From NCBI GenBank assembly GCA_019722365.1, contig JADFUC010000245.1, forward strand, positions 155,465-219,464: DNA of 64,000 bases, given 5' to 3'. Shown one piece after another: positions 34,976 through 64,000 of the stretch. The notes beneath the pieces are model-generated. The model saw nothing but the letters and a program-made list of their open reading frames with translations. It was not told the DNA's origin and ran no database searches. This DNA comes from Lithospermum erythrorhizon (lineage: Eukaryota > Streptophyta > Magnoliopsida > Boraginales > Boraginaceae). Each line of letters starts with the position of its first letter. Positions within the stretch are counted from its first letter, which is position 1. A program made the translations under genes and the position numbers.

Positions 34976-35039
34976 TTAATTAAACTAGATTCTTATATGA
35001 ACTTAACGACCAAACAATTCAATCCTTAAATTTAACCAC

Positions 35040-37077: not shown

Positions 37078-37299
37078 GTATCCCCACTATTTTCACATTT
37101 ATCTTCTATATGATTCCTCATACGACTACTAGAGGAAATAATTGGTTTGGTCAAATCGGGAATATTTGTTCATATAAATTTGGTGTGATCGGAAACATTT
37201 ATATAAAATTATTGCAACATGCAATAAATAATCATTTCATGCTTGTTCTAATATCATTCGATCATTTATTTTTGAAAGTGTCACTTAGGGATACACAAA

Positions 37300-39640
37300 T
37301 TGAACCCAATCTAAGCAACCTAAATTTTCTAAACCGACGAACCGAACCGATTTGTATTTTAAAAAATAATCGACATCAATCGGTTCGTTAGTTCCGCCGA
37401 AATATCGATGGATTCTTGGAACCTAACCGAATTCTTTATTTATTAAAAAACATCATTTATAGAGTATATAGTCAAGGAAATTAAAACATAAACCCTCATT
37501 CCATTTTACTGCCTCCATCTCTGCAACTAACCCCACCCCCACCCCCCCATTTATGTCTTCACTACCTCCCTTAGTACCAGTTGATATGTTTAAAAAATAC
37601 ATACTTTTGATCCGACGGCTAACTTTTCTGTTTGTTCACTAATCCCAAAAACACATGCTAGTTATTTGATTCTCTTGATGAAGTAGCATAAATTTTATTG
37701 GATATTGGACCGATTCAACTAGATTTTACTTATAATCAATCATGATTCTGAGTTTGAAGCCTTGATAAGTTCAAGTGACTTCACCAGACTAGCCGATAAA
37801 ATCGAACAAGCCAATGACTCGACTCAGTAATGGTTTGGCTCAAATAATCTAACAACCCGAGCAAATTTTTTCTTCAATCTTGGGTTATGTATAGGCACGT
37901 AGATGGCTGAACCTTATCGAACCTCAATAGAAATCGGTGTTCACCGAACAAAAGGATTCGAGGTTCGGTTAGGCTCGAGGTTGGAAACAACAAATCGTAA
38001 AAATCAACATTCACGCGGGGTTCAAAAAGTTGAAGGTTAGAGATTTGATCTTAATGGTTGAGGTTCGATTCGGAATTCCCCGACGAGAACATTCGAATTT
38101 TAATGATAAATATGAAAAATATGTACTTGTGGTTCGCTGCACTCTGAGCCGAAAGTGTTCAAGCCAAATTAACCTAAAAATTGCGGTTCAAGCTTAGCTA
38201 TTACCTAAAATTGAGGTTCGAGCTTTGCTTGAGCTACGCCGAACTCGAACTTCAACCTAACTTTCTAATCAACTTTCGCATTTTTTACTGCCTAATTATG
38301 TGCCAATCTCTAAACGCATAAAAACATTGGCTAATAAAGACAAAGAAAGTAAAGTTATATGGTTTGTTTGTTTTGGAAAATTAAGGAAATTCTAATACCC
38401 TCCTTGTTTGGAAACTTTAAATACGAGACAAAGATTTCTAGAAGATTATTTTAGCCCCTCATTCATCCTAATTCCCTATTACCCTCCAAATCGGGTGAGA
38501 ATCTTATGGCAATCTAATAAAATATAACACAATTTAATATATTCCTCCCTCCAAAATTATTGTATCCAAACAATAATTTAATTTATTCTCCCTAGTTCAC
38601 CCTCGATTTTCTTCCCCACGATATAAGGCCGCTTATATATATATAGTAGTAAAAAATTTCTAAACATAGTCAATGTTTGAATAAAAACTACATTACCCTT
38701 AATATAATTTAACACAATAACACATAGTCAAAATCAATAATTATTTAATACAGTTAAAAATAATTATCTTCTTCCTTTTTAATAAACATAGTTAAAATCA
38801 ATAATTATTTAGGATTTGTAATAAGGATATCCATCGTAAAAAGATTCTATCTTTTCCTGTAAATTCAATCATTAAAGGGTACATAACCATATCTTCAATC
38901 CCTTAATTCAATAATTATATTCTATGAAGAAGAATTATTAAAGAGGATATATTATGTTTTGTTATTCGGAATTAAGAAATAAATATATTAATTAGATGAT
39001 AATGTATGTTTGATTTTCCGTAACGAAGTAATGGATTTTGAGTGGTTTAAAATGCAAAAATGTATTAATATTGAAATATAATAAACTAGTTAGTCTAAAA
39101 GTACGGAGCAGATATTGTAACAAAATTTTCGCTGACGCGAAGTATAGAAATTTTTTGCAACTATTTATAACCGCTTATTGCCACATTTGGTCATTAATAA
39201 TCCAACGGTTTCTATTAGCTTTACAATTTAGCAAAACCTAAAATTGAGATATTCTCTTCAAACTCACCATACAACTTCACCGTAAAACATGCTTTCACAT
39301 CTAAAACATCCCAAAACAAAATTCCATTCAAATCAAAAACTAAAAATCGGAACTAAATTGTTCTTCATCAGATCTAGAATTGCAGAAGACCACAAAAGGA
39401 GAAATTTAAAGGAGATAAAGTATTGTAGAATATTTTGAAGAATTCCAATTGCATGTAAAAATTCAATTTTTAATGTTAATATTAACATCATGATTCAATG
39501 TGAATAAGATGGTAATTGGCTGAAGCTTGTGAAGAATGAAGATAATTATTGACACATATATATGAAGCTTAAATGTGGAACAGAGTGAGTAGGAAATGAC
39601 TATTTTACCCCTCATTGACATATATTAACTCAATTCTTTT
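37300..39640. other. Intergenic, with GGTTCGG-rich segments
   Basis: Around 37320-37430 and 37880-38270 the sequence is full of CCGAACCGA, GGTTCGGTT and GAGGTTCG, as in subterminal repeats of hAT-like miniature transposons. The rest is AT-rich with no gene. Confidence 0.4.
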
Positions 39641-39679
39641 CTGTATCATTATCTCTCCTCTCTCACATAATCCTTCCTA

Positions 39680-39990
39680 TATCTCACCAGGGAATATATT
39701 TTCTGTATCAATTCTCAATAACCAAAACCCATTAAACATTTCAAAAATATTCTATAATTTTCATATTGAATTCTCAAGAATCAAAACCCATAAATTTAGT
39801 TTGTATATTTGGCTTCATATTCATATATATCTGACGAGGTAATATATTTTCTGGTATGAAACATTAATAACCAAAACCCATTTACCCCATCAATTTCAGT
39901 TTTTCTGTGTGTAATTTTCTATATATATTTACATGACTTGGGATTATATTTCCTGGTAAGGAAGCTCAACAATTAAAACCCATAAATTTA
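39680..39990 (+). repeat. Imperfect repeats with AACCAAAACCCAT, near the PTI1-like gene leader
   Basis: AATAACCAAAACCCATT-type sequence appears at about 39717, 39777 (AATCAAAACCCAT), 39868 and 39970 (AATTAAAACCCAT). Three copies are preceded by ATATATTTTCTG or ATATTTCCTGG. Unit about 60-110 bp, diverged. Confidence 0.5.
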
Positions 39991-41044
39991 TTTTCTAAAT
40001 TGATGACTTAATGTTTTCCAATTTCATTTCTATTTGTGAAATGAAATAGGCATTCTCAGTTTTTTTAATCAATAAATTAATTCTTTTGTTTTCTCCTTTT
40101 TTTGAAGATTTTTTTATGCATCACCTTGTTGTTCATTTGGTGGAATTGCATACAATTTTACCTTCATTTTTTGTATAGTTTATTATTTTTAATAAGGTTT
40201 GATGATGATAATACAGGGTGATAAATGTATAATTCATTGGAATGTTGTAATTTGTAAATAGTTTTTTTTTTAATGTTAAATAATGGCTGGTGCTTGAATA
40301 TGGTTGGTCACATTGATTTCCGATGATTTTGAATAGATTGCGTTATTCAATTGAATGCAAGTCGAAATTTGGTGAAATCGATCTTTGGCGTCGTTGTTTG
40401 TTTGAGGAAACATTGATTACAAGTTTATAAAGGATAAGTATACATAATTTCATGGCTAGTTAGATATTAGGTATTTATATAACTAATGCAGCTCGGAAGT
40501 TTTATGTCGTGTGTTAAAGATTTTGAATGTATGAGATTATTGTCTTGCTTTAAGAGTTACAGAGATTGAATACGAAATTGAGTGCCCGTAATTTATGTTT
40601 CGTCTTATATTAATGAATTATATCTTAAAAATACTTATATATAAGGAAGAAATCGGTTAAACTATAAATGGTTCCGTAAAGCATTAATTTTATGCCTAAA
40701 AAAGTGGGGCATTGTTGGATTCCTGTCTTTCCATGCATGTTAAATTAGAGTGTTGGTTTATCTTTACAGTTGAGAGCTTAGCTGTTCTAAAATCTTCATA
40801 CTATAAATAATACATGCAGGGATCTAACAGCAGCTACTTGTTCGATATAATTTGCATTGTCCCCGTGCTGTTTAATGACAATATGCACATTAGAGGTTGA
40901 TAATTATAATGTCTGATCTGTAGTGTTGTACTGATTTCTAAACAATTGTTTGTATAGAATAGGCACATACGCTTAGTCCTGGTTACTTTGAGAGCCTCGA
41001 AAATACAAGTGCTGAAGAGAATCTTTATCTAAGAAAGAGCAAGG
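39991..41044 (+). other. Probable 5' UTR intron and leader of the PTI1-like gene
   Basis: A donor CCTG|GTAAGG near 39956 and an acceptor TTTGTATAG near 40956 could bound a 1.0-kb leader intron, with the sequence from about 40957 to the ATG at 41045 as leader. This is inferred from splice motifs only. Confidence 0.3.
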
Positions 41045-44000
41045 ATGCGGAGGTGGCTGTGCTGCACAAGTCAAGCTGAAGAGCGATATCGTTCTCATGG
41101 AAATGAGCCGTTGAAGAACCCAGACTATAATACTTATGGTATACCTTTTATTTCTGTTGAAGTATTGTTACAAATTTTAAATCTCAGTTGTTCCTGTTTT
41201 ATCCTTGAATCTGGTCCTTCTTTTCTGCTTATGTCTTGTACTGAACTGATAATTAAACTCTAGATGTTAGAAGGCAGTGGTGCATTTATGGTTTCATTTG
41301 ATCCTGTCGTGTGACCTTCAGGAAAAATAACTTTTGTAGTTTTAACATGGATTGACATTTTCACAAGTATCAGAACATGAGGTGGTATATAATGCAATTG
41401 ATTAACATAAAATATGTAGAACGCTTTTAAAGGTATTTCTTGCTTTGGGGTAGCGATGCACTTAAAAATTGCCACAAAAGAATCAAACAAACAAGACAAC
41501 AGTCTAGTTTTACTTCATTTTATAGTATCATCTAGCCTCTGAAGAATAGGATGTTAAGATGTAGTGCAACCAGTGGAAATAATTTTCCTCTACTGAGTTC
41601 GGAATAACATTTGTGATCTTTAGTTGGTTTCTTCATGAAGAAAGTCAGCAGGAGTTACTATTTTGTATCTTGTTTCCGTGGTCAAGTAAATGTTCTGTGA
41701 AACTAGTTGATGGTTATACATTTTCACTCTCCATCCCTACAGCAGATGGTATTTGCATCTTGAGGATCTCTGTGAGCTTGGAGGAGTTTGATACCCAGAA
41801 TAGTGGTGTTTATTTCATGGTGGCTTTCCTTTTTTTTTTGGCAACTTTTCTCCCTTTTTCTATTATGAATGCATTCAAGTATTCATGACATTTAAAGCTC
41901 ATTCCTTAAATAAGGTTTTCTGACTACTTTTGTGTGACATCAGCTCATGACAGAAAGCCCTCTCCAGTCAAACCTGACACACAAAAATCCGTACTACCTA
42001 TCGAGGTGCCTTCATTGTCTCTGGATGAACTGAAAGAGAAAACAGACAACTTTGGATCGAAGGCATTAATTGGTGAAGGGTCATATGGGCGGGTCTATTT
42101 TGCAGTTCTTGATGGAAAAACCGTTGCCCTGAAAAAGCTTGATGTATCATCTGAACCCGAGTCAACTGTGGAATTTTTGCCTCAGGTATATTGTGGTCTT
42201 GCAATATCTCCTGAAGAATAAATCTGTGAATCCTAATGATTCTGTTTTGGCATAATACTTTCTAATCAATGTTATTAAACATAAGGTGTCTATGGTTTCA
42301 AGATTAAAGCATGAAAATCTTGTGGAATTGCTTGGTTACTGTGTTGAAGGTAATATTCGTGTATTGGCATATGAGTTTGCAACCATGGGATCTCTGCATG
42401 ATATTTTACATGGTAAGCGATTAGTGATGGTATTTGTTTAATCCTTTTAGAAGCAATGGATGCTCAGATTTGATTATTGAATTATTTTGTTAATGGACTA
42501 CAGGAAGGAAGGGGGTACAAGGGGCACAGCCTGGTCCTACTCTTGACTGGATGACCCGGGTGCGGATTGCTGTGGATGCTGCTAGGGGACTAGAGTATTT
42601 GCATGAGAAAGTCCAACCATCAACAATACACAGAGACATCAGGTCCAGCAATGTACTTCTATTTGAAGAGTTTAAAGCTAAAATTGCAGACTTTAACCTT
42701 TCAAATCAAGCTCCAGATATGGCTGCTCGTCTTCATTCTACTCGTGTACTGGGAAATATTTGGTTATCATAAAACAGAGTAATGCCTTTAACTTCCTCTA
42801 AATTCCGTGATTGTATGGTGCCTGTTGTCTCTTCCTTTTACTATGGTGCCTGATGAAACTTCTGGTCCTTTTAATCTAGATGTTATTTTCTTCTTAAGGT
42901 CTTGGAACGCATAGTCCTTAAAAAATGATTTTAACTTTTTACATGCAAGTCAGAATGTATTTGGTGGTCATATAATTCTTGCGTTCATAACTTGCTCTTC
43001 AAAATTTGACGTTACATAATCTATCTGGGAGAATATAGGTTAGCGTATTACGTTTATAATAATATTCAAAAGGAATTTTACAGCATCGTAAAATATTTTT
43101 TATTTACAATACATCTGTGATATTTTTAATTCAATATCAGAAAATATTTTGTCAATAAATAATATATTTTTTAGACTCAATATCAGAAAATATTTACCTA
43201 ATAAATAATAATGGAGTATAACTTTAGACTCACACCAACAAGCATGGGTTTTTAATTTTCAGATTTCACCAGAAGTGTTGAAGACTATTTCTGAACACAG
43301 CTGCCATTATACTGTGACAATTAAAAATACATCATGAGCAACCAGAAAAGATGCTGATGTTGATATACTGGTTATGGATTATTTTCTCAAAGCCAATTTT
43401 GTGTGGTTTGAAATGAAAAAAATATGGTTTGGGATATTTGGACTAATAGCTAGTCCCCCATATGCTCGTAAATCTTCTATTATTAGCTTTTGGCCTAGCT
43501 ATGTTTTTGTGTGTTGTGGATTAACTCTTGACCGTTAAATTGTGCCTGCATAATTTGAGGCACTTAGTTTGCTTTTCAGTAGCTTTCTAAAATTTGTGTT
43601 TACTGTTTTATTTAATAGTCCTTGCTTTCTGGGTATGTACATGCAAATATAAAATCAGTTGACTCTCAGAAGAGCATGTCTAGTTTAAATGTTGTTTGAA
43701 CTTGACTGGGAGGAAACCTGTTGATCATAATATGCCCTTTATGAATACTTTTGTAACTTGGGTATGCCTGCGAATCTCCGGTGTTCGCTTGTTCAAATGC
43801 AATTTATTTTGCTATCTTCTTTCACCACATGCATTTGATTATTGTTGATTCAAGTTCAATTGTGTTTCCTGTAGGCCACACCAAGGCTTAGTGAGGACAA
43901 AGTTAAACAATGTGTGGATCCCAAGCTGAAGGGAGAATATCCTCCAAAAGCAGTCAGCAGGCCTGGCCCCGCACCTCTTCCTTAAAACCATATTCAGAGG

Positions 44001-44293
44001 AATGATGGCAACATGTACCTACATTTCATGCTTACATACAACTTTTAAACTGTTTAGAAAATGTTTGTGCATGTGGCTAAAGTTGTACATGACAATATCA
44101 TTCCCCAGTAAAGCAACTTTTCCGAAAACCATCTAATTTGCAATGTTGTTTGGCTGTCCAGCTTGCAGCAGTGGCGGCCTTATGCGTGCAGTATGAGGCA
44201 GAGTTCCGGCCTAATATGACTATTGTGGTGAAGGCGCTGCAACCACTGTTGAAGTCTGCTGCTCCTGCTCCGGCTCATGCTCCTGCTATTTAA
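41045..44293 (+). pseudogene. PTI1-like serine/threonine kinase pseudogene
   Basis: Recognisable exons: 41045-41138, 41944-42185, 42286-42412, 42504-42778, a ruined exon at about 43639-43761, 43875 to about 43955, and about 44161-44293. They encode [40 protein letters not shown] (ATP lysine), [20 protein letters not shown] (catalytic Asp), [14 protein letters not shown] and at the end [20 protein letters not shown]. This is the PTI1-like kinase family of plant defence signalling. The copy is dead. One extra base after RVLG in exon 4 shifts the frame into a TAA, and the APE motif has become KTE. The next exon, normally carrying DVYSFGVV, survives only as LTGRKPVDH and CTTGTAACTTGG with several small deletions. 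The sixth exon also ends abnormally. The N-terminal CC pair would be an acylation site. Confidence 0.85.
43639..43761 (+). pseudogene. Eroded kinase exon of the PTI1-like gene
   Basis: It aligns by eye with the exon that encodes the DVYSFGVVLLELLTGRK region of PTI1-like kinases. CAGTTGACTC, ATGTCTA and GGGAGGAAACCTGTTGATCA are kept, but short deletions remove the catalytic-loop-adjacent part. A GTATGC donor follows at 43762. Confidence 0.7.
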
Positions 44294-45100
44294 ATATGAT
44301 AGCATTTTATGCACAGTTCAAATGAAGATACTATTTTGTCACCACATCAAAATTTCTATACTTCTCTACAAGATTGAGGTCCTAGCCTTCCTTTTGGGGT
44401 TGATTGTGCTATTTTGCCTGGCTGTTTAAAATCGAGACGAATGCAAAAGTAAGTGGTGAATATAATTCGTCCAAAGTTTTTGTGCCCCTCTCCGAAAAGT
44501 TCTTTTATTATTATTATTATTACTTCTATCTTTTAATGATCAAGTTTCAACATGATGCACACAAAATCATAAGTCCTATTTCATTAACATATTCCAATAT
44601 CTTCGAGAAATTTCCAAATTTCACCTAAGCTAGTCCGGATATTACCCAACGTTAATATTCCAATACTCTCCAAGAAGTTCTAAGCCTCTGTCTTAACAAA
44701 ACACACTTGCCAATCGGCCCAAAGAGACCAAGATTATATAAGGAAGTCTGATATTGAGTGCTTTTAGCACATCAAAACATAGAAATTTCCCAAAGTACTC
44801 CATCTGCTATGAATATTCTTACTTAGGCAATCTCTTGACTTACCAAAAAGAGAAGAAATAGAATTGAACTTGCTTTGGTATTTATATCACCAAAATAACA
44901 GTACAACAACCAAGCGCTTTCTAAATGATCATATCATAAGGAGATGCCTTTGCTTCGATTCACGTGCGATCTCTTATAAAACATTCTCCTCTCAAAAAAA
45001 AAAAAAAAAACAGTACAATGAATTACACCAAACAGCTAATACAAACTACCCACAACATCTTGAAGTCAAGGTATTAGGTAGAATATGAAATGGTAACTAC

Positions 45101-45278
45101 CTAAAAGGAAAGAAGTTGAGGAACCTTTAGCTCTCCCTCGTAGTTTATAGCTGCAACATCTCGTTTTTCTTGGGTAAGTTCCTCAGGTTTCTGATTTTCT
45201 TCGTTAGATTGAGCTACAGGTAGCTCGGGAGGAGAATCTACGCTAGCTTCTGGCTCCTTCAATTCTGATTCAAATTCT
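45101..45278 (-). other. Possible terminal exon of an unknown gene
   Basis: Minus strand. An acceptor GTAATGCTAG at 45279 is followed by an open frame coding for a Glu/Pro-rich tail (EFESELKEPEASVDSPPELP ... KRDVAAINYEGELKVP) that ends LLSF and stop. The composition is protein-like and unlike the noise around it. I could not find upstream exons between 45300 and 47000, so it may be an orphan exon of a decayed gene. Confidence 0.3.
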
Positions 45279-45299
45279 AGCATTACCAAATAAGAAAAT

Positions 45300-47021
45300 T
45301 GACAACAAAACAATGACTACTGAAGTAGAGTAGCAGCTGCAGGCAAATACATTTTTAACACCTACCATTATTCGAACTCAAGTTGGAGGATCTGCTCCAA
45401 CTCGAGGAGAAAAAAAACATAAAAGAAAGCCAAATGCTCTAATAGCATTAGAAGGCACTTGATTTATACATCTCAATGAATTTAACTTATGAATAAAATG
45501 AGCTAGCCACACCAACTCATGAACATAATCAGTTTAAAGTGAATCTCTAGTTTTATAATCTTCACAAGATGAGAATACTTGAGAGCAATCATCAAAAGTA
45601 ATTCAAATATAATCTATTTCTGCCTGAAGATGATGGAAAGTTGGCATATCATTGGAACAAATTTTATTATCCTGAAGAAAAAAGTTTTTTTTCACTCTTG
45701 ATGTTACTTCAACTTGAAGGGTACAGTACCATCTACAATTTTATCTAGCTTTTCTGGTGCTCTTTCACTGTAGACGTTCAAGTGCCTATGGCTGGAACTT
45801 GATTAGCAACTATGGAACTACTGAGCGATAAGATTTCATTCAGTCTATGTGGACAATATGGAGCTGACAAACAAATAAACAAAAGAAGCCAACCACCTTT
45901 TCTTGTGATGCATGGCTGTGTTACAATATTGCTCCTCAGCATCAGATGAAAGCAATAATGGGAATGACTATCAATTTATGTTATTGGAGTCATCCATGGA
46001 TACCTTTCCGAATGAAAAGTTCAGTATGAGTTGCTTATTATAGCCAACTTCATCATTATAGGGGAAAGAGAGAATCTGAAATCATAAAAGATTACTCATG
46101 TAATCATGTTGGTGATCTACCTATAACCTACCCATGGTGAGATAGATATCTAGTATATAAAAGAATCTTTAAGTGTAACATATGGTGCTTAAGCTCTTAC
46201 GTTACCTCTAAGGTACTTAAGGTCTCTGTGCTTTAATTTCAAATTTTTAATTTGTTCATGTACAAATATACTTTAAAACATTTATGAAACATTTCTTAGC
46301 TTCTAACATTTTATGCTTTACAAATATACTCTAATAAGTGTAGATATGCACAAAGCCAGATGGGTGGTATCATAAGGTGTTTTCCATCTGCATTATATTA
46401 ATACTTCGTATAAAAATATACAAATTTCACAACGCATTTAACGAATAAAAAATAAAAAGTAAAGCAAAGAGACTTACACATGATCCAATCCACACTATTA
46501 CCAATAAAACTCCATGGTTAAGTTATTGTACAATGGTTGGAATTTGCACCTATTGAGTAACGAACTCAAAGTATATCACTCTCAAACTCAAGGACTCTAC
46601 AACTGAAAATAAATTGATACTTGTGATATAGAAAACAATTCAAGTTATAGATCAAGAAAGTTAGGAGGACGAAATAAGAGTATAAGTACAAAAGGATAAA
46701 AGTGTTCTCTATCAAAAGGCTTACTACTGGCCTCTAAAATTGTTAAAACAGAACAAGATTGTCTGAATTCTCCCATATACCAATCAATAAATGAGATTTT
46801 TTTTCTCCCCCACATCTAGAAACCATTCTTAATGGATTTTTGGTTTTGTACAAAGAGAAAAGGTGCACTGGAAAGACCATAATAGGACCTTTAAATCTTT
46901 GCGAATAAAAGATGAAGAATAAGAAGAATTGTACTTGGACCTATTGTTGAATGACCTACACCTCATGAATTCCATTGCATTGAATGGTTTTATGCATCAC
47001 TATCATTTTCTTTCAGATTCA
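45300..47021. other. Intergenic, no gene seen
   Basis: AT-rich with no protein-like frame and no repeat that I could identify. Confidence 0.5.
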
Positions 47022-50000
47022 TTAACAACGCAATCATTTGCAAATATGCGACTGCCATCAACTGTGATAATCGCAGCCTACCAACGCATTTATCACTAAA
47101 AGAAAATGAGGACTTCAAGTTTAACATAATAAATAAAATAATACAACTGCCCATCGCCAACTAACTAACACTCACAACAAATCGAAGGTAATAATACAAA
47201 TACAACACTAAAACAACGTTTTACAACAACGATTATTATATACAACAAAAATTTCTGGAAGGAAAATAAAATACTGCTGGAAAAGTTTTCAAATCACTAT
47301 CGCTAATTTATCGGGGTTCGGCAGCCTACCGGCCAACGATCTCGATCATCCCAAATAACCTGGTGATAAAGACTACCATTAGTAATGTGAGTCAACACAG
47401 TTCTGAAAGGAATACAAATATCACGTAAGAATCCACCACATATATATGCTAAGAATACTAAGTCCAATACTTAACTAACAACTATACACCATAAGCATTA
47501 TATTTCAGATGCCACTTCCTCAGTCAGATAAATACTTTCTTACCAACCTTCAACTATCACCCCATTTAAAACCACAATCACATCACCCTTTACTCACATT
47601 ACAACTTAGTCAAATCGAACATCCTCTATTTGTTATCTTTCTTATGTACAATGAAGTTCCGTATAATATTCAACTCTAACATACAACAACTCAAAGATAC
47701 GACTCAACACATTCATAAATCTCTGGGAGATACCACCAAACAACCAAGACTGCTAACCAAACAACTTAACCAGTTATCTTAGGTCCACCATAAAATGATA
47801 CTCCAAATCATAATCAAACACCTACATGTTATCCGAATGCTTATAACAGGAATCTCTACTTTGTTTCATTTTCTTAATACAACTAGGCAACATATTCCTT
47901 AAATCAAGATAATCTAAGTACCGAATTATCTCCCCAAATTCCTCATTTAATATATAGAACATATTCACCTCAATGATATCAACGTCGTACTTGGATAATA
48001 ACTTATATACAACCACACCCTCACTCTAATTTCACTCATATAAAATATCAACATCATCTCCAGATATCACTAACTTCAAGTTTATACTTTTCAGATCTAT
48101 TGTTCTCATTCAAATATTATCTCAACCATCCAATCAACTCAACTTCTTTAACTCCTCAAAGAACGCAAGTAACAGTATACCAACCCCCCAGATCCTCATG
48201 TAAATTTGATAATATGATCCCTACTCACCACAACCTTAATTCACATCACCTCAAAACAACTTCTAGCCAGAATGGAGCATTATCAATAAATAGTAAACGA
48301 GTCATATAATATATAAATGAGTCGTAAAACATATCGTAACACCAAAAAGTCCAACAAATATATAATACAACCAATGACTCAACACACAACGACTCGGCTG
48401 CATTTACGTACCAACAAGATGCACTCAACCCACTCAATCGACTCGACAACTCAACGACTCCATCAACAAAATCAACTGTATCAACTCAACAACTCAACAG
48501 TATTATCAACTCAACAACTCAATAATGGTATCAACACAACAACTCAACAAGAGTGTCAACTCAACAACTCAACAACTCAACAATCCTACAACTCAATATA
48601 AGTCCGGATTTCTACAACTAATGCGCATATATCAACCTCAACCTGCAGGGAGAAACTTATGCCCGTCGACATAAGCTATCACCGAATCGTAACGAGGTAC
48701 GAAGCAATCACCGAATCGTTACTAAAGCATTTAGGCAACCTACTCAATCGCATTTCAGTAACGGCAAGATACCGGACAATCAACTCAACAGACAACATCA
48801 ACTCAACCAACAACATCAACTCAACTGACGACATCAACTCAACTGACAACATCAACTCATATACAACTCTTCCTAACACGACTCAACACCACCACCAAAT
48901 ATCTATACAACTCATGAGACCACCGACACGAAACAACACAAGGAAATAACAACTTTCAACCAACACAACCAAAATCATATATATATATAATCAACACATC
49001 TACACATCATTTATTATAGTGGAATAATAGTGATTATATCCTCAAGATACCCAACAGCACAACAACATATACATTGTGCTGAGCAAATAAACTCTGTGGA
49101 GATTAGTACTCACCTCTTTGAGTTCAGAGCGCACGTTAACTTCTGTGCAGCTTCGCTGCTAAAGCCCAAGCTCACTTCCCTATACAATGTAAATCATACA
49201 TTATAACACGTTCAATAGGATAACCTCTCTCTTAACATTATATATACCCCGAGTGTTATACCACGTCTCACGATTCCAATTTACAACTCTTAGCAATCGT
49301 TCTATCCCCAAAATTGATATACCCTTATGACATTCCAACATACTACATTCTCAATATTCGATCCATACCTTAATACCCCAACAATAACCCCTTAAGTACA
49401 TTTAACCAATCCAACAATCATTTAACAACTAATTAATCCATTAAATATAACCTCCACCCAATCACGAAAGGCTAGTACGAATCCTCCCAACTTTCAACTA
49501 GAATTCGACTATCCATTATCCAAACCAACAATTTTCATACCTAAAAACAACTATATTAAAGTCCTTTGATCTCATATTACCATTTAATGTCAATTTAAGA
49601 AAAGTCAACATAACACTTACACCACTTTCTAACCCCAATAACTACTCAAAATCATCGCTAATCCCCTCACCGATACTCAGATAACATTTCTATACCATTA
49701 TACTTAAGATCTAAAGTCAACCAACATTCATAAAAAGTCAACTCTTCTTCAAAAACTTCAAGAAATACTCCAAAATATTTGAACTTTCTACCTCAAAACG
49801 CAGAGAATGTCTCGGGAATCTTCCAGAAATTCTGAAATAGCTCGCCAAATTCGAAGAAAAATTCGAAGAACAAAATCAAGGGAAATGGTGGAGAAAATTC
49901 AGCCAAGAGGGGAGTGAGAAAAGAGATGAGTTTGTGTTTGGATAATCTCAAGCGATAAGGATGATTAAAAAGTCTCGTGGGTCCGCACTCCAAAATATCT

Positions 50001-50250
50001 CAAGACTAGCTCGCTCGTTCGGTTTACCAATTTCGCTCCCATTTAACAACACAACTCTAATATAACTTTAACTTCTAATCCCCCAAATAATATTATACCA
50101 CTGACACAACTTTAAAATCTTAAATACCAAATCGCACTATCAACCGATCGATTTATTCCAACATCTAACTTCGAAAATCTCCGATTCCTCGAATACCCAC
50201 CGAAAGCAACCAGTATACTATTTCATAATATTAATATGGAACGGCTATCA
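47022..50250 (-). repeat. Array LTR 1, about 3.2 kb
   Basis: Homology with LTR 2 is clear from about 47054 (GCCATCAACT). The first 30 bases are diverged and lack TGTAACGACC, so the left end is approximate. The inner end is ACGGCTATCA at 50250, followed by the purine tract (minus). Confidence 0.7.
48420..48880 (+). repeat. CAACTCAACAACTC low-complexity block
   Basis: Runs of CAACTCAACAACTCAACA and ACATCAACTCAACTGACA form two imperfect clusters inside LTR 1. Similar blocks lie at about 54340-54730 (LTR 2) and 60170-60590 (LTR 3), so the block is part of the ancestral LTR. On the minus strand it would be a GTTGAGTTG repeat. Confidence 0.85.
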
Positions 50251-52899
50251 TGCCTACCCACCTTATGAAATTTCGTCTCTAAATTTACTGACTCCTCAAT
50301 CAGATAATCTCATCGCATCTTCTCATGCCCTTATCAACTAATATCATGACACCTTGCCGCCCACTCAAATTCCCCCAAAGATAGTATCCGCTCTCAGAAT
50401 TCCATAATATCTTATGTCAATAAACTTAAGGCAGTGACCCTCTTACACCATAACACAACATTCAACCGATAAATGTTTCTCTCTGCCTCGCTTATCATCT
50501 TTATCTTCTTCCGTAATATATATAGCTGCCATATGAACACCCTCAGTTGCTTCCATAATAACACAAAAATTAAAAACCTATCACCGATACCGACATCAAG
50601 TTTCATACTCATAGTCGCGCTATCATAACACTCATTATCAACATTAAGTCTATTCATGAAAAACGAATTCTTATCAACCTGGGCCATACTAATCGCCTTT
50701 ATTATTAGCGAATGTAGCGATTACCCAATGTCTCCCAGATACAACTAATGTGTAACTCACCACCGAGTCCTCTATCAATCGTTGTTAACAATCTCACCTT
50801 AAACTCAATAAATCGACATTAACTTGTTGATTTATGTCCTTATGATCTTTATACCTCACAAAGTCTTATGGTCCATTCAACACACAAATTTCGGTAACAC
50901 TTCACACCCTAACTTAATCTTATCAGCCTATTCGCCAGTCCTCTCATGATACCCCAATCGTAACCTTTAATAACTTCCATTCAACTCCTTGAACCACAAC
51001 CAACCTTATCAATTCATCACCTAAATATTCTACCATGCACATTAATACCCCTTTCTATCTTATCAAGTCTTAATTCACTTATTAGTACTTCACTAACTCA
51101 AATTCCCACAATTAACCATTGGCTCATACCACCGAAATCAGCCATTACTGTAATTCGGAAAATCTTTAACACTACATTCACCTAGAACTTGACGCTCACA
51201 ATCATACTTTCCAAAGAACGAGATTCGCCTAGTTGCCACTACCGGTATAAGTCGCAATCTCCATGAACAATTATCTAACTTTAAACAAGCATTTATTTAA
51301 CTTTTTAAATCACAAGATCCTCAAAGCATCACAGATAATTATCATCTCCGATATTTAACAATGTTTCCTAACCCAACAATCCTATTAATTATCTGTAACT
51401 ACGGCTCTTCATCACCGCCGATATCCTCTATCTTATATATGACAAACCACTCACCTCCGAACTCTTATTCCATTGATCTTACAACTTGTCGAACACACAC
51501 GCATCTCCAAAGTTCCAAATCCCCACTCACACCGTTTTACCAGATTCAACACCTATAGATTCACCCAACTCCTGTATTTTAAATAAGGTCCTACTGCGAC
51601 AATTCTCACTAACACTTTTCCTCCAAGATATTTTAGATACACAACATATTTCAATCCCTGTCATGACTTACGATTTCATTCCGGAATCGCCCGATCAACT
51701 TTACACCTTTTTCAAAGAAACTCTACTTAACCGGCCCAACCTTCTTTATCACTCACCGAAATTAAACTTCCACTTTCATCTTATTACAACGCTAACTTAC
51801 TCCTTTCCTGTCCTCTCACATCCATATTCCAAAACAGACAATGCAATATCATTTATTCACAATTACTCCAAGTATACAAGACTAAATCTTGATTGTTTTA
51901 AAGATCAACATCTTACACCACATTCAAATGCTAATCCACAAATGCTATTATCACCCAAAAATCCTCCTCAACTCAACCTTGTAATACCCCAGTCTCACCA
52001 ATTGCACCAACTTGCAAATAACAACTTCAAATTCAAATACTGTGAAATCCCTTTCAATAACTTCGATATAAATCGCTCTTCCTAAATCTCAACATATTCC
52101 TCCATATCTCATCTCCCAAAGGTTTCTGCAACTCGTAGTTTACATCCTCAAGTAATAATCATTTACCTATCACAAGATAAACTCCACTTAACCACCAACT
52201 CTATTTAACCATTAATAACAAATAACCTCACAACTCTTTTTCTCTTATTCATTCTCGATTTGAATTCACCCTGACTTACTTATCGTTTCCGATCAAACCC
52301 ACGTTTCACATTTCCTTTAAAATCTAGATCTCTGGCAATCCAGTAACCTTACTTATAACCCATTGATATTCTTTACGACTCCACCTTGAATATATCGTAC
52401 ATTAATTATCACAACTTATCCTTAATTACCTCATGTCATAAAGTCTCATTATCCATCTACCACCACATCAACTATTAAGACACTCTCTCAAAATATATAC
52501 TTCACCCCAATATCTCATAATATTCTGAACCATAACATGTCTTGTTCCAACTATACCCCATCATATATATATCACAACCCATCTAGCGGATCTCCAAGTT
52601 ATGCCCAGGTACCCATCTCAACATATACATACAACTCAACGTACGTCATATCAACATAGTCATCTCACACATCTCATAGAATAGGACATCTCAAACAAGT
52701 AACATCACAAGCACACAAAACGCAAGTAGTCTCGTAAGAACCTCGTGACGCGAAGTCACAAATCTTTCCAAAGAGCGCCTCAACAACAACGACCGAAAAC
52801 AAAAAGGACTCAAGACTGTAATCACACACAACACACTCACACCATAAACCCAAACACAACCAATACACCAAGAAAACACAAACCTGCTCGATACCAAAT
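50251..52899 (-). repeat. Array internal region 1, 2649 bp
   Basis: From the polypurine tract (50251-50264 in plus orientation) to the spacer after the primer-binding site. No coding frame for gag or pol. It contains the plus-strand frame 51663-52085, shared with the other copies. Confidence 0.7.
52886..52896 (-). other. Degenerate primer-binding site
   Basis: Minus-strand TGGTATCGAGC, three bases from the LTR end. It matches the initiator tRNA-Met primer site TGGTATCAGAGC except for one missing base. At 58774-58787 the second copy reads TGGTATGGAGC, changed differently. Confidence 0.6.
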
Positions 52900-55800
52900 T
52901 GTAACGACCCGCCCTGTGGCCCCCCGAGGGATCGCCATCAACTCTCGTATAATCAGAGTCACCAACGACGGATCACTAAAGCAAATGACTTCAAGAACAT
53001 AATAAATAAAATAATACAAATCCTCGTCCAACAAGCATCCTTAACTAACACCACAACAACCGGAAGGTAATAATACAAATACAAACACCAAACAACGGTT
53101 TACAACAACGAATTATTATATACAACAAAAACCCAAGGAAAATAAAAGTATGATCATTGGAAAGTCTTCAAATCACCATCGCTAATTCCACGGGTTCGCA
53201 GCTACTCGGCCAACGCGTCTCGATCATATCCCAGTCCCATAAGACACCATATGAATGTGAGCGCCTATGAAGCTGAGTGAATACAAATATCACAGAAGTA
53301 ATCCACCACATATATATATAAGAATACTAAGTCCATTACTTAACTAACAACTATACACCATAAGCATTATATTTCGTATGCTACTCTCAACAGGATAAAT
53401 ACTTTCTTACCAACCTTTCAACTATCACCGATGAAACCACAATCACATCACCCTTTTACTCACATTACAACTTAGTCACCGAAACATCCCTCTATTTGTT
53501 ATCTTTCTTATGTACAGCGAGTTTCCGGTATAATATTCAACTCTAACATACAACAACTCAGCATACGACTCAATATTCATAACTTAGAGATACCCACCAA
53601 ACAACCAAGATCACACCAAAACAACTCAACCAGTTATCTTAGGTCCACCATAAAATGATACTCCAAATCATAATCACACACCTACATGTTATCCGAATGC
53701 TTATAACAGGAATCTCTACTTTGTTTCATTTTCTTAATACAACTAGGCAACATATTTCTTAAATCAAGATAATCTAAGTACCGAATTATCTCCCCAATTT
53801 CCTCATTTAGTATATAGAACATATTCACCTTAATGGTATCAACATCGTGATTTGATCATAACTTACATACAAACACACCTGACTCTAATTTTCCACCATA
53901 TATAATATATCATCAACATCATCTCTAGATTATCACGAACCTCGGTTTATACTTTTCTTATATCTATTGTTCTCATTCAAATATTATCTCAACCATCAAT
54001 CAACTCAACTTTTAACCTCAAAGAATGTGCAACAGTGTATACCAACCTAGGATCCTCATGAAATTTGGATAGCAGGATCCTACTCAACCACAACCTTAAT
54101 TCGACATCAATTCCTCAAAACAAATCTCTAACAGAATGACATTTATCAATAAATAGTAACTGTCATATATTGCTATAAATGAGTCAGAAACATATCAGAA
54201 CAACTAAAAAAAGTCCCAGAACAAACATATAATACAACCACACGTGACCAACACAACGACTCGACAACACGACAAACAACAAAGACGACTAACTTAACGA
54301 CTTTAATAACTCCAACGCATCTTATATCAACAAAAATCAAATTGTGATCAACTCAACAACTCAAATGTGATTATCAACTCAACAACTCAATAACGGCATC
54401 AACACAACAACTCAACAAGAGTATCAACTCAACAACTCAACAACTCAACAATCCTACAACTCAATATATAAGTCCGGATTTCTACAACTAACGCAAGATA
54501 TATCAACTCCTCAACCTCATAGGAGAAACTTATGCCCACGACATGTTTTATCACCTTAATCAGAATGAAAATGTACAATGATCAATCAAGCATTAAGTAC
54601 GAGGTACTACCTTAATCGTACTAGTAACGAAGCAAGATACCGGACAATCAACTCAATGCATTAACATCAACTCAACCAACAAATATCAACCTAACCGACG
54701 ACATCAACTCAACCGACAACATCAACTCATATACAACTCTTCCTAACACGACTCAACACCACCACCAAACATCTATACAACTCATGAGACCACCCCATTA
54801 CCTAAACAACACAAGTGAAATAAAACAACTTTCAACCAACACAACTAAATCATATATATATATAATCAACACATCTACACATCATTTATTATAGAGCGGA
54901 ATAACAGTAATTATATCCTCAAGATACCCAACAAGTACAACAACATATACATACATGAGCAAATAAACTCCTGAGATTAGTACTCACCTCGAGTCTCGTG
55001 AGCAAGAATGTTAACTCTAGGCACGCCTCACAAGTGTTTCCAAGCTCACTTCCTATACACAGAAATCATACATTATAACACATTCCATAGGATAACCTCT
55101 CTTAACATTAATATATACCCCGAGTGTTATACCACGTCTCACGATTCCAATTTACAACTTAGCATCGTCCTATCCCCAAGATTGATATACCCTTTTAACA
55201 TTCCAACATATTACATTCTTCAATATTTGATCCAGACTCTTTAATACCCTAACAATCACACTCATACATTTAACCAATCAAACAATCATTTAACAACTAA
55301 TTAATCCATTATTAAATATAACCTCCAATTCAATCAATGAAAGGCTATACGAACTTCCCAACTTCAACTAGAATTTACTATCCACATCCAAACCAAATAA
55401 TTTCTGCTACCCAAAAACAACTATATTCAGTCCTTTCTGATCTCATATTACCATTTAATGTCAATTTAAGCAGTAAGTCAACAAAAAGTCAAATATAACA
55501 CTTACACCACTTTCTAACCCCACAACTACTCAAAATCATCGCTAAATCTCCACCGATACTGGGATAACATTTCTATACCATTATAATTTCAAGATCTAAA
55601 AGTCAACCAACACCATAAAAAGCCAACTCTTCAAAAACTCAAGAAATACTCCAAAATATTTGAACTTTCTTACCTCAAACGTAGAGAATGTCTCTGTGGA
55701 ATCTCCTTAAAAATTTTGTACAAAAGCCTAAATTTGGAAGAAAATTGAAGAACAAAATCAAGGGAAAATGGTGGAGAAAATTCACAAGCAGGAGGGAGAG

Positions 55801-56140
55801 CAGGATGAGTTTGTGTTTGGATAATCTTAAAGGTGATAAGGATGATTAAAAAGTCTCTTGTAAGGTCCGTGACTCCAAAAAATATCTTTTTCAAGACTAG
55901 CTGCCTGGTTTTCGCAGCCCAATTTCGCCTCATTTAACAATAACTCTAATATAACTTTAACTTCTAATCCCCAAATAATATTATACGACTCGATTACAAC
56001 TTAAAATCTTAAATACCAAATCGCACTATCAACCGGACGATTCATTACATTCCAACGATTCAACTTCGAAATTTCCGGATCAAATACCCACCTAGCAACT
56101 AGTATACTATTTCATAAATATTAATAATGAACGGCTATCA
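52900..56140 (-). repeat. Array LTR 2, 3241 bp
   Basis: Complete from TGTAACGACCCGCC (52900) to ACGGCTATCA (56140). It serves as both 3' LTR of one unit and 5' LTR of the next. In its middle is a block of CAACTCAACAACTC repeats (about 54340-54730). A minus-strand leader-like segment lies at about 55680-55930. Confidence 0.8.
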
Positions 56141-58790
56141 AGGCTTTACCCACCTATGAAATTTCGGCCCCTCGAAATTTACTCGACCTCAACTGGCAGA
56201 TAACTTCATCTGCACCTTCACATGCCCCCATCAACCACATGACACCTTGTCGCCCACTCAAATTTCCCCAGTATATAATCTGTATTCATAACTCCCATAA
56301 TATCTTATGTCAATAAACTTAAGGCAGTGACCCTCTTACACCATAACACAACATTCAACCGATAAATGTTTCTCTGTTCAAGCTTATCATCTTATCTTCT
56401 CCGTAATATATATAGCTTTGCTTGATATGAACACCCTCAGTTGCTTCCATAATAACACAAAAATTAAAACTCATATCACCGATACCGATACTGTCTACTC
56501 ATAGTCGTGTCATCATAATACTCCATTATCAACGATTAAGTTCATTCATGAAAACGAATTCCCTTTATCAACTCAAATAAGCAATAACTGCTCCTATTAT
56601 ATATGAATGTAGTGATTACCCAATGTCTCCCAGCATACAACTAATGTGTAACTCACCACCGAGTCCTCTATCAATCGTTATTAACAATCTCACCTTAAAC
56701 CCACAACTGACATTAACTTGTTGATTTATGTCCTTATGATCTTTATACCTCACAAAGTCTTATGGTCCATTCAACACACAAATTTCGGTAACACTTCACA
56801 CCCTAACTTAATCTTATCAGCCTCTATTCTGCCCTCCTATGTTCTAATCAGAACTCCTTTAATAACTTCCATTCAACCTCCCACAACCAACCTTACTCAA
56901 TTCACCAAATATTCTACCATGCACATTACCCCCTTTCTATCTTATCAAGTCTTAATTCACTATTAGTACCTCACTAACTCAAATTCCCATGACCAACTAT
57001 CAAGCCTGTATACCAATCGAAATCACCATTACTACCTCCCGAAAGCACCTTTTAACACCATTCACTCCCAGAACTTGGATGCTTCGTCAATCATACTTTC
57101 CAAAGAATTCAGATTCCTCTAATTAGTGCTACCTTACCGCATAAGCCGCAACTTCCATGAAACAATTATCTAACTCTTTAAAAACAATTTATTTCAACTT
57201 TTAAATCACAAGATCCTCAAAGCATCACAAGATAATTATCATCTCCCATACTTAAATAATGTTTCCTAACCCAACAATCCCATACTACCTGTGAACTATG
57301 GCTTTCTATCACCTCATTGAGTCCCCATCTATAGTGACAAACCACTCACCTCCGAACTCTTATTCCATTGGATCTTACAACTCGTCGTAACACACACGAT
57401 CTCCAAAGTCTCCAAAATCCCCCACTCACACCGCTTTACCGTATTCAACACCTATAGATTCACCCCTCAGATTTTGGGGCCAAGGTCCCATCGCACACCA
57501 CTAATACTTTTCCAAGATTTTTAGATAATAAATATATTTCAATCCCTCTCATGACTTATGATTTCATTCCGGAATCGCCCGATCAACTTTACACCTTTTT
57601 TAAAGAAACCTCCACTTTAACCGAATCTCAACCTCTTTATCACTCACCGAAATTAAACTTCCACTTCAATCTTATTACAGCGCTAACTTACCCCTTCCCT
57701 ATCCTCTCGCATCCATATTCCACGGAATGCATAATGCAAGATTACTTATTCAATTACCCAAGTATACAGACTAAATCTTTTGATTGTTTTAAAGATCAAC
57801 ATCTTACACCACATTCAACGTTAATCCCACAAATACATATCACCCAAAATCCTCCTCCCTTTTCAACTCAACCTTAGTAATACCCTCGGGTTCACACACC
57901 AAAACTAACTTGTCAACAACTTCAAATTCAACACTGTGAAATCCTTTCTAATAACTTCGATATAAATTGCCTCTTCCAAATTCTCTAAATATTCCTCCAT
58001 ATCTCATCTCCCAAAGGTTTCAACTCGTAGCTTTCTTACATCCTCAAGAATAATCATTTACCTATCACAAGATAAACTCCACTCAACCACCAACTCTATT
58101 TAACCATTAACAAATAACCTCACAACTTTTCTTCTTATTCAAATTGATTTAATTCATTTTACTTATCGCTTTCTCGATCAAACCTAATGCTTCACATTTC
58201 CTTAAAATCGTAGACTGCTAACCAAGAACCTTACTTATAACCCATTGATATTTCTTATTTACTCCACCTCGAGTATATCGAGGCTAATTATCACACCGAT
58301 CCTTAATCACCTCATAAAGTCTCATCATCACTACCACCACATCAATAACTATTAAATATATTTCACCCATTATCTCATAATATTAATGTATATCATATGT
58401 CATATTCTAACCCATAACATAAGTCTTGTTTCAAAATATACCCCATCATATATATATAGCAACCCATCGTTGATCTCCATATAATACCTAGTTAACGTAT
58501 CTCAACATATAATATATAACTCAACGACGCCATATTAACATAATCAGCTCACATCACATTAGCATAATACATCCTAACCAAAGTAACATCACAAGCACAC
58601 AAAAACCTCAAGCAGTCTCAGTTAACCCCTCGCACGAGTCGACAAAATCTTCCAAAGAGGCCCCCAAATGTACCAACGAATCTCGAAACAAAAGACAATT
58701 GACCTACATGACAACACACTCACACCATAAACCCAGCAATACAACCACACAAGACACCAAGAAAACACAAACCCAAGCTCCATACCAAAT
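56141..58790 (-). repeat. Array internal region 2, 2650 bp
   Basis: Same extent as internal region 1 to within a base, despite many small internal differences. No gag/pol frame. Confidence 0.7.
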
Positions 58791-61700
58791 TGTAACGACC
58801 CGCCCCAAAGGGCCCCCCGAGGCTGGGGACCAGATAATCGAGTCACCACCACGGATCACTAAAGCTAAATGACTTCGCTTAAATATAATAAATGAAAATA
58901 ATACAACTCGCCCATCTAGTGAACTAACTAACACCGTAACAACCGAAGGTAATAATACAAATACAACACCAAACAACGGTTTTACAACAACGATTTCATT
59001 ATATACAACAAAACCCATGAAAATAAAAGCATGACCGTCGAGGCCTTCAAATCACCATCGCCACCCGCATCGGTTCGGGCAGCCTACCTCTTGCCGCAAC
59101 GATCTACCTATCCCGCAACCTAGGCATAAGACGCCTACCATAGAATGTGAGTCGCCCATGTTCGAGCTGAATACAAATATCACGTATAATCCAATCACAT
59201 ACATATATAATATTCATTTAACTAACAACTATACAATTATAAGCATTATATTTCATGCTACCTCAGATAAATACTTTCTTACCAACCTTTCAACTATCAC
59301 CGATGAAACCACAATCACATCAACCATTTACTCACATTACAACTTAGTCACCGGAAACATCCCTCTATTTGTTATCTTTCTTATGTACAGCGAGTTTCCG
59401 GTATAATATTCAACTCTAACATACAACAACTCAAAGATAACACCTAACATTCATAACTTAGAGATACCCACCAAACAACCAAGATCACACCAAAACAACT
59501 CAACCAGTTATCTTAGTCCAATTATAAATGATACTTAAATCATAATCACATACTACATGTTATCCGACTAACAGAATCTCTACTTGTTTCCATTTTCTTA
59601 ATACAACTAGGCAACATATTTCTTAAATCAAGATAATCTAAGTACCAATTATTCTCCCCCAATTTCATTTAGTATATAGAACAAACTCAATCTTAATGGT
59701 ATCAACGCCGTGAATCGACTGGCAACTTTATATACAACCACACCTCGACTCTAATTTTCCAAATTCATATAGCAAATATCATCAACATCATCTCCAGACA
59801 TCATTTAACTTCAGTTTGTTTTTCTTGTATCTATTTGTTTCATTCAAATATTATTTCAACCATCAATCAATCCCAACTTTTAACCTCAAAGAACGGCAAA
59901 GGTATATACCAACCTAGGATCCTCATGTAAATTTGATAATATGATCCCTACTCAACCACAACCTTAATTCGACATCAATTCCTCAACACAACCTCTAGCG
60001 TAATGAAAGCATTATCAATAAATAGTAAACTAGTCATAAAATATATAAATGAGTCGTAAAACATATCGCAACACCAAAAAGTCTAAACAACATATAATAC
60101 AACCACATAGACTCAACACAACGACTCGACAAATACGATGCCCCTTCAACAAGATTTAAACCCACCAATCGACTCGACAACTCAACGACTCCATCAACAA
60201 AATCAACAGTATCAACTCAACAACTCAACAATGTTATCAACTCAACAACTCAATAATGGTATCAACAATAACAACTCAACAAGAGTAAGCCAACTCAACA
60301 ACTCAACAACTCAACAATCCTATTAACTCAATATAAGTCCGGATTTCTTAACTAATGCGCATATCAACCTCAACCCGCAGTGGAGAAACTTCTATGCCCG
60401 GCTTATTGTTATCACCGAATCAACGAGGTACGGAACACTTAATCGTTACTACACGAGGCAACTCACTCAATCTGCATTCAGTAACGGCAAGATACCGGAC
60501 AATCCTCCAAATGTATTAAACATCAACTCAACCAACAACATCAACTCAACTGACGACATCAACTCAACTGACAACATCAACTCATATACAACTCTTCCTA
60601 ACACGACTCAACACCACCACCAAATATCTATACAACTCATGAGACCAATTCCACAATTAGAAATAAATAACTTTCAACCAGACAACCAAAATCATATATA
60701 TATAATCAACATCTACACACACACCATTTATTATATGGAATAATTAGTAATTATATCCTCAAGATAACCAACAAGTACAACATATACATATACATGCGAT
60801 AAATAAAACCCCGTGAGATTAGATCACTCCTGCCCAGAGCAAGAATGCTAATCCCCCAGCGCCTTCGCTAAGTAGCCCAAGTCACTTCCTATACATGTAA
60901 ACTTGCTACATTATAACACATTCTATAGATAACTCCTCTTAACATTTATATATACCCCGAGTGTTATACCACGTGAGATCCCAATTTACAACTCTTAACA
61001 ATCGTCCTATCCCAAGATTAATATACCCTTTTTATCATTTCAACATACTACATTCCCAATATTCGACATCCAGAATTTTAGTCACTCCTAACAATCACAC
61101 CTTAAGTACATTTAACCAATCAAACAATCATTTAACAACCACCAATCCATTAAATATAACCTCCAATTAAATCACGCAAAGGCTATACGAACTTCCCCCA
61201 ACTCTCTCAACTAGAATTTTGACTATCCACATCCAAACCAACAATTTCATACCCAAAACAACTATATTCAAGTCCTTTGATCTCTATGTTTCATTTAATG
61301 TCAATTATGAAAACAATAAAGCCAATATAACACTACACCACTTTCTTTCAAACTCTTACACTCAAAATGCTTAAATCTCCCACCATACTGATAACATTTC
61401 TATACCATTATAATTTCAAGATCTAAAAGTCAACCAATACCATAAAAGTCAATCCTTCAAAAACTCAAGAAATACCTTAAAATATTTGAACTTCTTACCT
61501 CAAAACGCAGTAGAACGCCTCGGGAATCTCTCCGTAAAATTTTAGGCCAAAGCTCGGCCAATTCCAAGAAAATCAAGAACAAAAATCAAGGGAAATGGTG
61601 GAGAAAAATTCGCCAAGAGAGGGAGAAAGAGGGACGAGTTTGTGTTTGATAATCTCAAGGTGATAAGGATTTATTAAAAGTCTCGTGGTCTCGCACTCCA

Positions 61701-61957
61701 AAAATATTCACATTTCAATGCTCGCTCTGTTTCGCTCAATTGCCCTGATTTAACAACACAACTCTAATATAACTTTAACTTAACTTCAAATAATATTATA
61801 CTCACTGACATAACTTTAAAATCTTAAATACCAATCGCAGAATAATAACCGATCATTCATTATATCTCCAACGATTCAACTTCGAAAATTACCGAATACC
61901 CACCGAAAGTAACTAGTATACTATTTCATAATATTAATATGGAACGGGAAGTATTCA
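58791..61957 (-). repeat. Array LTR 3, about 3.17 kb
   Basis: Begins TGTAACGACCCGCC. The end near 61957 (ACGGGAAGTATTCA) is altered relative to ACGGCTATCA of the other two LTRs. Slightly shorter than LTR 2. Confidence 0.75.
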
Positions 61958-64000
61958 CAAATTACCCACCTTTATGAAATTTCGCCTCGAAATTGCTGAC
62001 CTCAATCCGCATAATCTTATCGCACCTTCGACATGCCCTTATCATCAACTAATATGACACCTTGTCGCCCACTAAATTCCCCAAAGATAGTGCATCTGCC
62101 TCGCAACTCCCATAACATACTTTATGTCAATAAATCCTAAGGTATTAATTCTCTTACACCATAACACAAACATTCAACCGATAAATGCTTCTCTCGCTTT
62201 CGCTTATCATCTTATCTTCTCCGTATTATATATAGCTTTCGCTTGATACAACACCTCTGCCAGCTTCCATAATAACACAAAAATTAAAACTCATACCGAT
62301 ACTGAGCATCGTTTACTCATAGTCGTGTCATCATAACACTCCATTATCAACCCATTGTCTATTCATGAAAACTATTCCTTATCAACCTACATACCAACTG
62401 CTCGATATTTAATGTAAAGGATACTCAATGTCTCCTGAAGATACAACTAATGTAACTCACCACCAAGTCCTCTATCACAGCTTATTAACAATCTCACCTT
62501 AAACTCCACAACCCATATTAACTGTCGATTTATGTCCTATATGATCTTTATACCACAAAAGCCCATGTCCATTCAACACACAAATTTCGTAACACTTCAC
62601 ACCCTAACTTAATCTTATCACTTATTCAAATTCTCCTTCATGATACCCCAATCGCACCTTTTAATAACTTCCATTCAACCTCCTTGAACCACAAACCAAC
62701 CTTAATAATTCATCACCTAAATATTCTACTCACGCACATTACGCCCCCTTTCTATCTTATCAAGTCTTAATTCACTTATTAGTACTTCACTAACTCAAAT
62801 TCTACACTAACTACTGGGCTCATACTCAATCGAAATTTATTACTACCCGAGTACCTTTAACACTCACATTCACCTAGAACTTGACGCTTCCACAATCATA
62901 CTTCCAAGAATTAGATTCACTAGTTGCTACTCACCGGTATAAGTCGCTAACTTCCAGAACAATTATCTAACTTCTTTAAAACAAGCACGATTTCAACTTA
63001 AATCACAAGATCCCTGTGTGTGCACCGCATAATTATCATCTCCATACTTCTAACAATGTTTCCAACCCAACAATCCCACACTACCTCAGAACTACATGGC
63101 TCTTCTCATCACCCCTCGCCGATATCCTCATCTATATGACAAACTTCACTCACCTCCGAATCCTTATTCCATTGATCTTTACAACTTGTCGGTAATTACA
63201 CACGATCTCCAAAGTTCCAAATCCCCACTCACACCGTCTTACCAGATTCAACACCTATAGATTCACCCAACTCAGTTTTAAATATGTCCTATCACATAAT
63301 TCTCACTAACACTTTTCCTCCAAGATATTAGATATACAACATATTTCAATCCCTGTCATGACTTACGATTTCATTCCGGAATCGCCCGATCAACTTTACA
63401 CCTTTTTTAAAGAAACCTCCACTTTAACCGAATCTCAACCTCTTTATCACTCACCGAAATTAAACTTCCACTTGCATCTTATTACGACGCTAACTTACTC
63501 CTTTCCTATCCTCTCGCATCCATATTCCACAACAGACAATGCAGTATCATTTATTCACAATTACTCCAAGTATACAGGACTAAATCTTGATTGTTTTAAA
63601 GATCAACATCTTACACCACATTCAAATGCTAATCCCACAAATACATATCACCCAAAATCCTCCTCAACTCAACCTTGTAATACCCTGAAGTTCACACAAT
63701 TGCACCAACTTGTCAACAACTTCAAATTCAAATAATGAAATCCTTTCAATAATCTCTCATAAATTGCCTCTTCCGTGAATTCCTCTAACATATTCATCTC
63801 ATCTCCCAAAGAGAAGCAACTCAGAGTTTACATCCTCAAGAATAATCATTTACCTATCACAAGATAAACTCCACTCAACCACCAACTCTTATTTTAACCA
63901 TTATTAACAACAACTTCAACTCTTTTTCTTATTCAAATGATTCGACCACCTCGACTTACTTATCGCTTAGCAATACGTAACTGGAACGAAGTAATAATGA
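61958..64000 (-). repeat. Array internal region 3, truncated by the window
   Basis: Collinear with the other two internal regions through the ATGACTTACGATTTCATTCC landmark at 63358 and beyond. The array therefore continues past 64000. Confidence 0.75.

Follow-up and report, generated by a model that had tools for sequence, protein, structure and literature searches.

A head-to-tail array of an apparently LTR-retrotransposon-derived 5.88-kb unit in a stretch of probably uncorrected nanopore sequence

The right-hand part of a 64,000-nucleotide stretch of DNA (the window; all coordinates refer to it) consists of copies of a long unit. This raises the question of whether a large long terminal repeat (LTR) retrotransposon has been amplified there head-to-tail with shared LTRs, as an earlier note proposed, and of what the marked differences between the copies mean. 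The sequence from ~47.0 kb to the window end is very probably uncorrected Oxford Nanopore sequence carrying a true head-to-tail array of at least 2.9 units on the minus strand. Self-comparison resolves 47054-63968 into a direct tandem repeat in which 2.88 units of ~5.88 kb each are visible head-to-tail (Table 1). Positions 47054-58149 align directly with 52934-63942 at 81.6% identity, and 47120-52285 with 58879-63965 at 82.4% (E = 0.0 for both); under relaxed scoring, 47054-58171 pairs with 52934-63968 and 47066-52288 with 58833-63968. The motif TGTAACG marks unit starts at 52900 and 58791, so that the first unit measures 5878 bp if counted from 47022 and the second 5891 bp. The alignment is unbroken through both visible junctions and no unique DNA separates the units, as in a shared-LTR tandem complex. 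The proposed array is thus real, while the differences between its copies prove to be mostly sequencing noise.

Both edges of the array lie slightly inside the limits first given for it. The earlier note began the array exactly at 47022, but clear similarity is found only from ~47054. Positions 47015-47056 match the LTR start no better than shuffled sequences do (of 500 shuffles each, 192 and 447 score as high), and for 47015-47090 the match to unit 2 is reached by none of 500 shuffles and the match to unit 3 by 21. The 152 bases before 47022 are unlike the end of the internal region, scoring 33 in both comparisons, short of the best of 200 shuffles (43 and 41), whereas a positive control reaches 160. 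The left edge of the array lies within ~33 bp of the LTR terminus; by our own rough estimate, a random edge would land so near in ~1% of cases (2 x 33 of 5880). On the right, the array does not run to 64000 as stated but stops at ~63968, where unit 3 is truncated, and is followed at once by an untrimmed nanopore adapter, whose sequence is given as the Oxford Nanopore end adapter in PMC7490894. Outside the last 60 bases of the window, the best adapter matches require 5 edits on the same strand (at 47483) and 6 on the other. For random sequences of equal length and dinucleotide make-up, five of which were tried, the best matches are at 5-6 edits. The longer top-strand adapter is found with 3 edits at the window end, as opposed to 7 elsewhere on that strand.

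The copies also differ in ways characteristic of uncorrected nanopore sequence, with homopolymer shortening and clustered errors accompanying the end adapter. Any two units differ by 19-21% substitutions and by 173-184 insertions or deletions (indels). Insertion-dominated noise, which is of the PacBio type, was rejected, as units 1 and 2 show 181 indels against 1069 substitutions. In a three-way comparison of 5405 columns, which leaves out the first ~60 and the last ~40 columns of the overlap, a two-state fit gains 656 in log-likelihood, separating a clean state with 3.8% of columns differing from a patch state with 77%, in stretches averaging ~10 and ~7.5 columns, respectively. When changes were instead simulated as independent, with a similar identity, the gains in three runs were 20.0, 13.3, and 31.3. 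The 3192 clean columns (59%) are pairwise 98.7-98.9% identical, and the 2213 patch columns 45-54%. Columns in which one unit alone is odd number 346 for unit 1, 389 for unit 2, and 476 for unit 3; in a further 106 all three units differ, 570 are gapped, and 3518 are identical. Since the odd columns are largely private to each unit, the units must have been read separately, which argues that the array is physical.

Runs of at least six equal bases are scarce in the array (47054-64000), where 7 are found against a mean of 28 in 200 simulations (range 14-47); two overlapping control stretches hold 47 against 50 (30000-46946) and 55 against 55 (18001-35000). When the expectation is taken more simply from composition, it is 34.7 for the array (7 observed), and 19.5, 15.5, and 40.6 for three stretches spanning 1-47000 (23, 31, and 64 observed, respectively). 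Homopolymer error in nanopore sequence is treated in PMC7736779. Among base changes in the array, T>C (94) is not rarer than C>T (80), which is not the pattern of methylation-driven decay. Elsewhere in the window, the two copies of a repeat pair (within 4138-5330, 93% identical) differ by 32 transitions, 18 transversions, and 1 indel. The patches are enriched in CAG, CTG, and GC-containing triplets, and where two copies agree, the third deviates at 8 of 16 CAG/CTG sites and at 0 of 35 CCG sites (CWG vs CCG, Fisher p = 2e-5). Modification-mediated nanopore errors are treated, for Listeria, in PMC10687267.

It is because of the adapter, the patchy differences, and the homopolymer depletion that the stretch is read as uncorrected nanopore sequence, probably a single read that ends at 63968 inside the array and continues into the adapter, with the window end probably being the contig end. 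The 19-21% difference between copies would then be mostly basecalling error, which means that the copies are far more similar in reality than they look here and that the array is probably of recent origin. Eight consecutive T at 46797-46804 are intact, and judging from this single run the sequence looks accurate at least up to that point. Several considerations weigh against this interpretation. We infer both the single read and the contig end from a window that itself stops at 64000. The simulations set beside the two-state fit contained no mutation hot spots, and the ~98.8% identity of the clean columns is inflated, these columns having been selected for agreement; real divergence may be hidden beneath the noise. 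The third copy deviates also at CGG (4 of 13) and CGA (15 of 50), and at G-centred sites generally more often (72 of 379), so that methylated cytosine fits the patch contexts only partly, being suggestive at most given the uneven CG contexts and the broad involvement of G. Finally, the change from accurate to noisy sequence falls within ~250 bp of the array start, so that there may be a join artefact at ~47.0 kb. This change could reflect either failed polishing where the repeat begins or the joining of a raw read, and polishing failure is preferred given that the array edge and the LTR end coincide.

The unit itself is supported as LTR-retrotransposon-derived by its sequence motifs. On the minus strand, both visible junctions read ...GGTCGTTACA-AT-TTGGTAT(C/G)GAGC..., that is, an LTR end followed by a primer-site-like motif, and TGTAACG at each junction stands beside TTTGGTAT(C/G)GAGC on that strand. 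The motif is imperfect at both junctions and putatively of the tRNA-iMet type. The orientation of the LTR end and the adjoining motif therefore places the element probably on the minus strand. The LTR terminus, the primer-site-like motif, and the near-terminus start of the array together uphold a retrotransposon-derived tandem, whereas the label of large retrotransposon derivative (LARD), also given to the element by the earlier note, is not established, because open reading frames cannot be tested validly in uncorrected sequence and because the division of the unit into LTR and internal region is ambiguous. A tandem array gives no means of reading off the proposed division into 3.2 and 2.65 kb, and the boundary that this division implies is absent from the ten best-scoring positions of a scan for CA followed by pyrimidines, scored across all three units. 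That scan ranks 52234 first (13, 12, and 12 pyrimidines of 13 by unit) and 50492 a close second (12, 12, and 12). The top-ranked tract is kept in all three units (52234; 58126-58136 in unit 2; 63920-63930 in unit 3, for which the scan position is 63914) and would give an LTR of ~5.2 kb and an interior of ~0.67 kb. Both 3.2 + 2.65 kb and 5.2 + 0.67 kb are candidate splits by motif, and neither LTR length is proven.

A domain scan of 62 of the 87 open frames of at least 50 amino acids in the array (all 22 on the minus strand and the longest 40 of 65 on the plus strand) found no retroelement domain, but uncorrected errors would break any frame; it returned four single weak hits, the best at E 0.0057. 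The plus-strand frame 51486-52085, antisense to the element, matches no Pfam family up to E = 1, and its counterparts are recognisable at 57551-57877 and 63358-63735. No Rfam match at gathering scores occurs anywhere in the window, and an exact 28-base clean block of the unit is unmatched in viral and genome contig collections, neither of which is a plant collection. Subrepeats of the CAACTCAACA type, with 25- and 18-bp periods, lie within unit 1 at 48423-48859, and similar ones are present in units 2 (54347-54729) and 3 (60210-60584). Strand asymmetry is very strong across 47054-63968 (GC skew approximately -0.42 to -0.58 in 2-kb windows) and is stronger in the clean columns (-0.60) than in the patches (-0.36).

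Table 1. Coordinates of the array, its junction motifs, and the three-LTR element in the same window.
Feature	Positions	Strand	Remarks
Unit 1	47054-52899	-	Detectable homology; LTR end itself probably near 47022
Unit 2	52900-58790	-	5891 bp; begins TGTAACG in plus-strand view, element reads on minus strand
Unit 3, incomplete	58791-63968	-	Cut by nanopore read end
Primer-binding-site-like sequence, junction 1	52883-52896	-	TGGTATCGAGC..., adjoins LTR end
Primer-binding-site-like sequence, junction 2	58774-58787	-	TGGTATGGAGC...
Boundary implied by the first lengths given (LTR ~3.2 kb, internal ~2.65 kb)	50251-50275	-	Weak purine tract
Alternative polypurine tract	52234-52246	-	Plus strand CTCTTTTTCTCTT after ...ACA; top-ranked
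Untrimmed Oxford Nanopore end adapter	63970-63992	+	One edit (one inserted base); eight more bases to window end
Cassandra-like three-LTR element	4146-5330		LTRs 4146-4432, 4601-4887, 5044-5330; two interiors

Unequal homologous recombination between the LTRs of a single insertion is the most likely way in which the array grew. It would convert LTR-int-LTR (int, internal region) to LTR-int-LTR-int-LTR and then to longer forms, the usual account of shared-LTR complexes. How far the array extends is a separate matter. It is possible, though the odds are against it, that the visible units are the edge of a long satellite or macrosatellite with a retrotransposon-derived ~5.88-kb monomer, and that the contig stops where assembly failed; this would extend the reading of a true array rather than replace it. 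The read does terminate inside the array, and long retrotransposon-derived monomers are on record, among them the potato centromeric repeats and Sobo (PMC3648361). However, only 2.88 units are seen, and ordinary dispersed repeats end contigs too. A narrower version, in which the read has caught the margin of a macrosatellite that is young, near-homogeneous, and made of whole ~5.88-kb units in LTR register, is more tentative still. If true, a satellite would have been caught at birth from a complete element, with unequal exchange still using LTR-LTR homology.

Recombination is not the only route by which such an array could arise. A multimer could be made by template switching during reverse transcription and integrated in one piece, as has been proposed for complex elements of the Triticeae (PMC1950507, where it is an alternative origin of shared-LTR complexes) and put forward as an alternative for Cassandra (PMC7215508). 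No feature of this array tells the two routes apart, but the multimer requires at least 17 kb of RNA or complementary DNA per particle, and we consider this origin unlikely. Less credible still is that the array is old and that normal mutation has brought its units to ~20% divergence: the substitution identity of 79-81% between pairs would suit it, but it is strongly disfavoured by a patchiness far above that of independent change, by the homopolymer loss, by T>C being at least as common as C>T, and by the sequencing adapter at the end. Duplication of one true unit by the assembler, the case that the earlier note had named as refuting its array, is equally improbable despite the low-quality stretch adjoining the adapter, as each unit has its own odd columns and a copied consensus would repeat its errors.

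The practical meaning of this locus is a warning, as 17 kb of apparently uncorrected nanopore sequence, adapter included, can mimic an old, diverged repeat array within an assembly. Uncorrected sequence gives no basis for judging divergence, age, reading-frame content, or LARD status, and dating, frame calls, or a family consensus drawn from 47.0-64.0 kb would be wrong. Biologically, the locus adds one further candidate to the shared-LTR arrays, and what is visible may be the edge of a longer array.

The same window also holds a three-LTR element with an intact target-site duplication, at 4146-5330, showing the same three-LTR architecture as the large array. Its three LTRs are of 287 bp each, its interiors measure 168 and 156 bp, and a 5-bp duplication, CCATA, flanks both sides. 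The LTRs resemble 5S, with scores of 76, 92, and 88 against shuffle maxima of 39, 37, and 41 when aligned to a 5S sequence; Rfam gives no match there up to E 0.1. An integrase-like frame runs on the minus strand at 3726-4235 (rve at E 0.0012, which falls below the curated cut-off); the element overlaps its edge and has apparently inserted into it. Nearby, a minisatellite at 2558-3709 comprises ~16.7 copies of a 69-bp unit with 89% matches. Further along lie a protein-kinase frame (20483-20962, E 2.6e-19), a frame at 21846-22931 whose OSR1_C match (WNK-like) is weak and below the cut-off, and a rubredoxin gene (24992-25651, E 1.1e-18), and by this gene content the window looks plant-like.

Set against known systems, the array shares features with several. 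Like a LARD, it has a large unit, an LTR end with a primer-site-like motif, and no recognisable coding domain in its uncorrected sequence. However, LARDs have LTRs of ~4 kb and internal regions of ~3.5 kb, whereas here both lengths are unsettled and the frames are unreadable in uncorrected sequence. Retrotransposon-derived satellites with monomers of ~1 to 5.4 kb are described or cited in PMC3648361, which cites potato centromeric monomers of up to 5.4 kb and Sobo at 4.7 kb. Sobo, the potato repeats, and CRM1TR and CRM4TR resemble the present array as tandem kilobase monomers related to LTR or untranslated-region parts of retrotransposons, but they form long, proven arrays, with CRM1TR and CRM4TR derived from partial elements (PMC3648361), while fewer than 3 units are seen here, apparently whole and in LTR register. 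Cassandra arrays likewise repeat LTR and internal region head-to-tail, with up to 12 repeats per array (PMC7215508). They differ in their ~0.45-kb unit and 5S-like LTR, as the 5.88-kb unit lacks 5S similarity (scores of 26 and 29, compared with 76-92 for the element at 4146-5330). A parallel in layout is offered by BARE1 and the Triticeae shared-LTR complexes, in which a large element forms LTR-int-LTR-int-LTR with single shared LTRs, a structure ascribed to LTR recombination or to template switching (PMC7215508; PMC1950507). BARE1 is autonomous and of known sequence, whereas the present array is known from ~2.9 units lacking their right end. For barley BARE1, with LTRs of 1.8 kb and an interior of 6 kb, at least 4600 three-LTR structures are cited in PMC7215508, and PMC1950507 calls shared-LTR elements "not uncommon"; both contradict the suggestion that such an array is unusual for an element this large. 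Shared-LTR arrays of this kind, large elements included, are already documented, and the present one is a real array of an ordinary kind, viewed through a faulty stretch of assembly.

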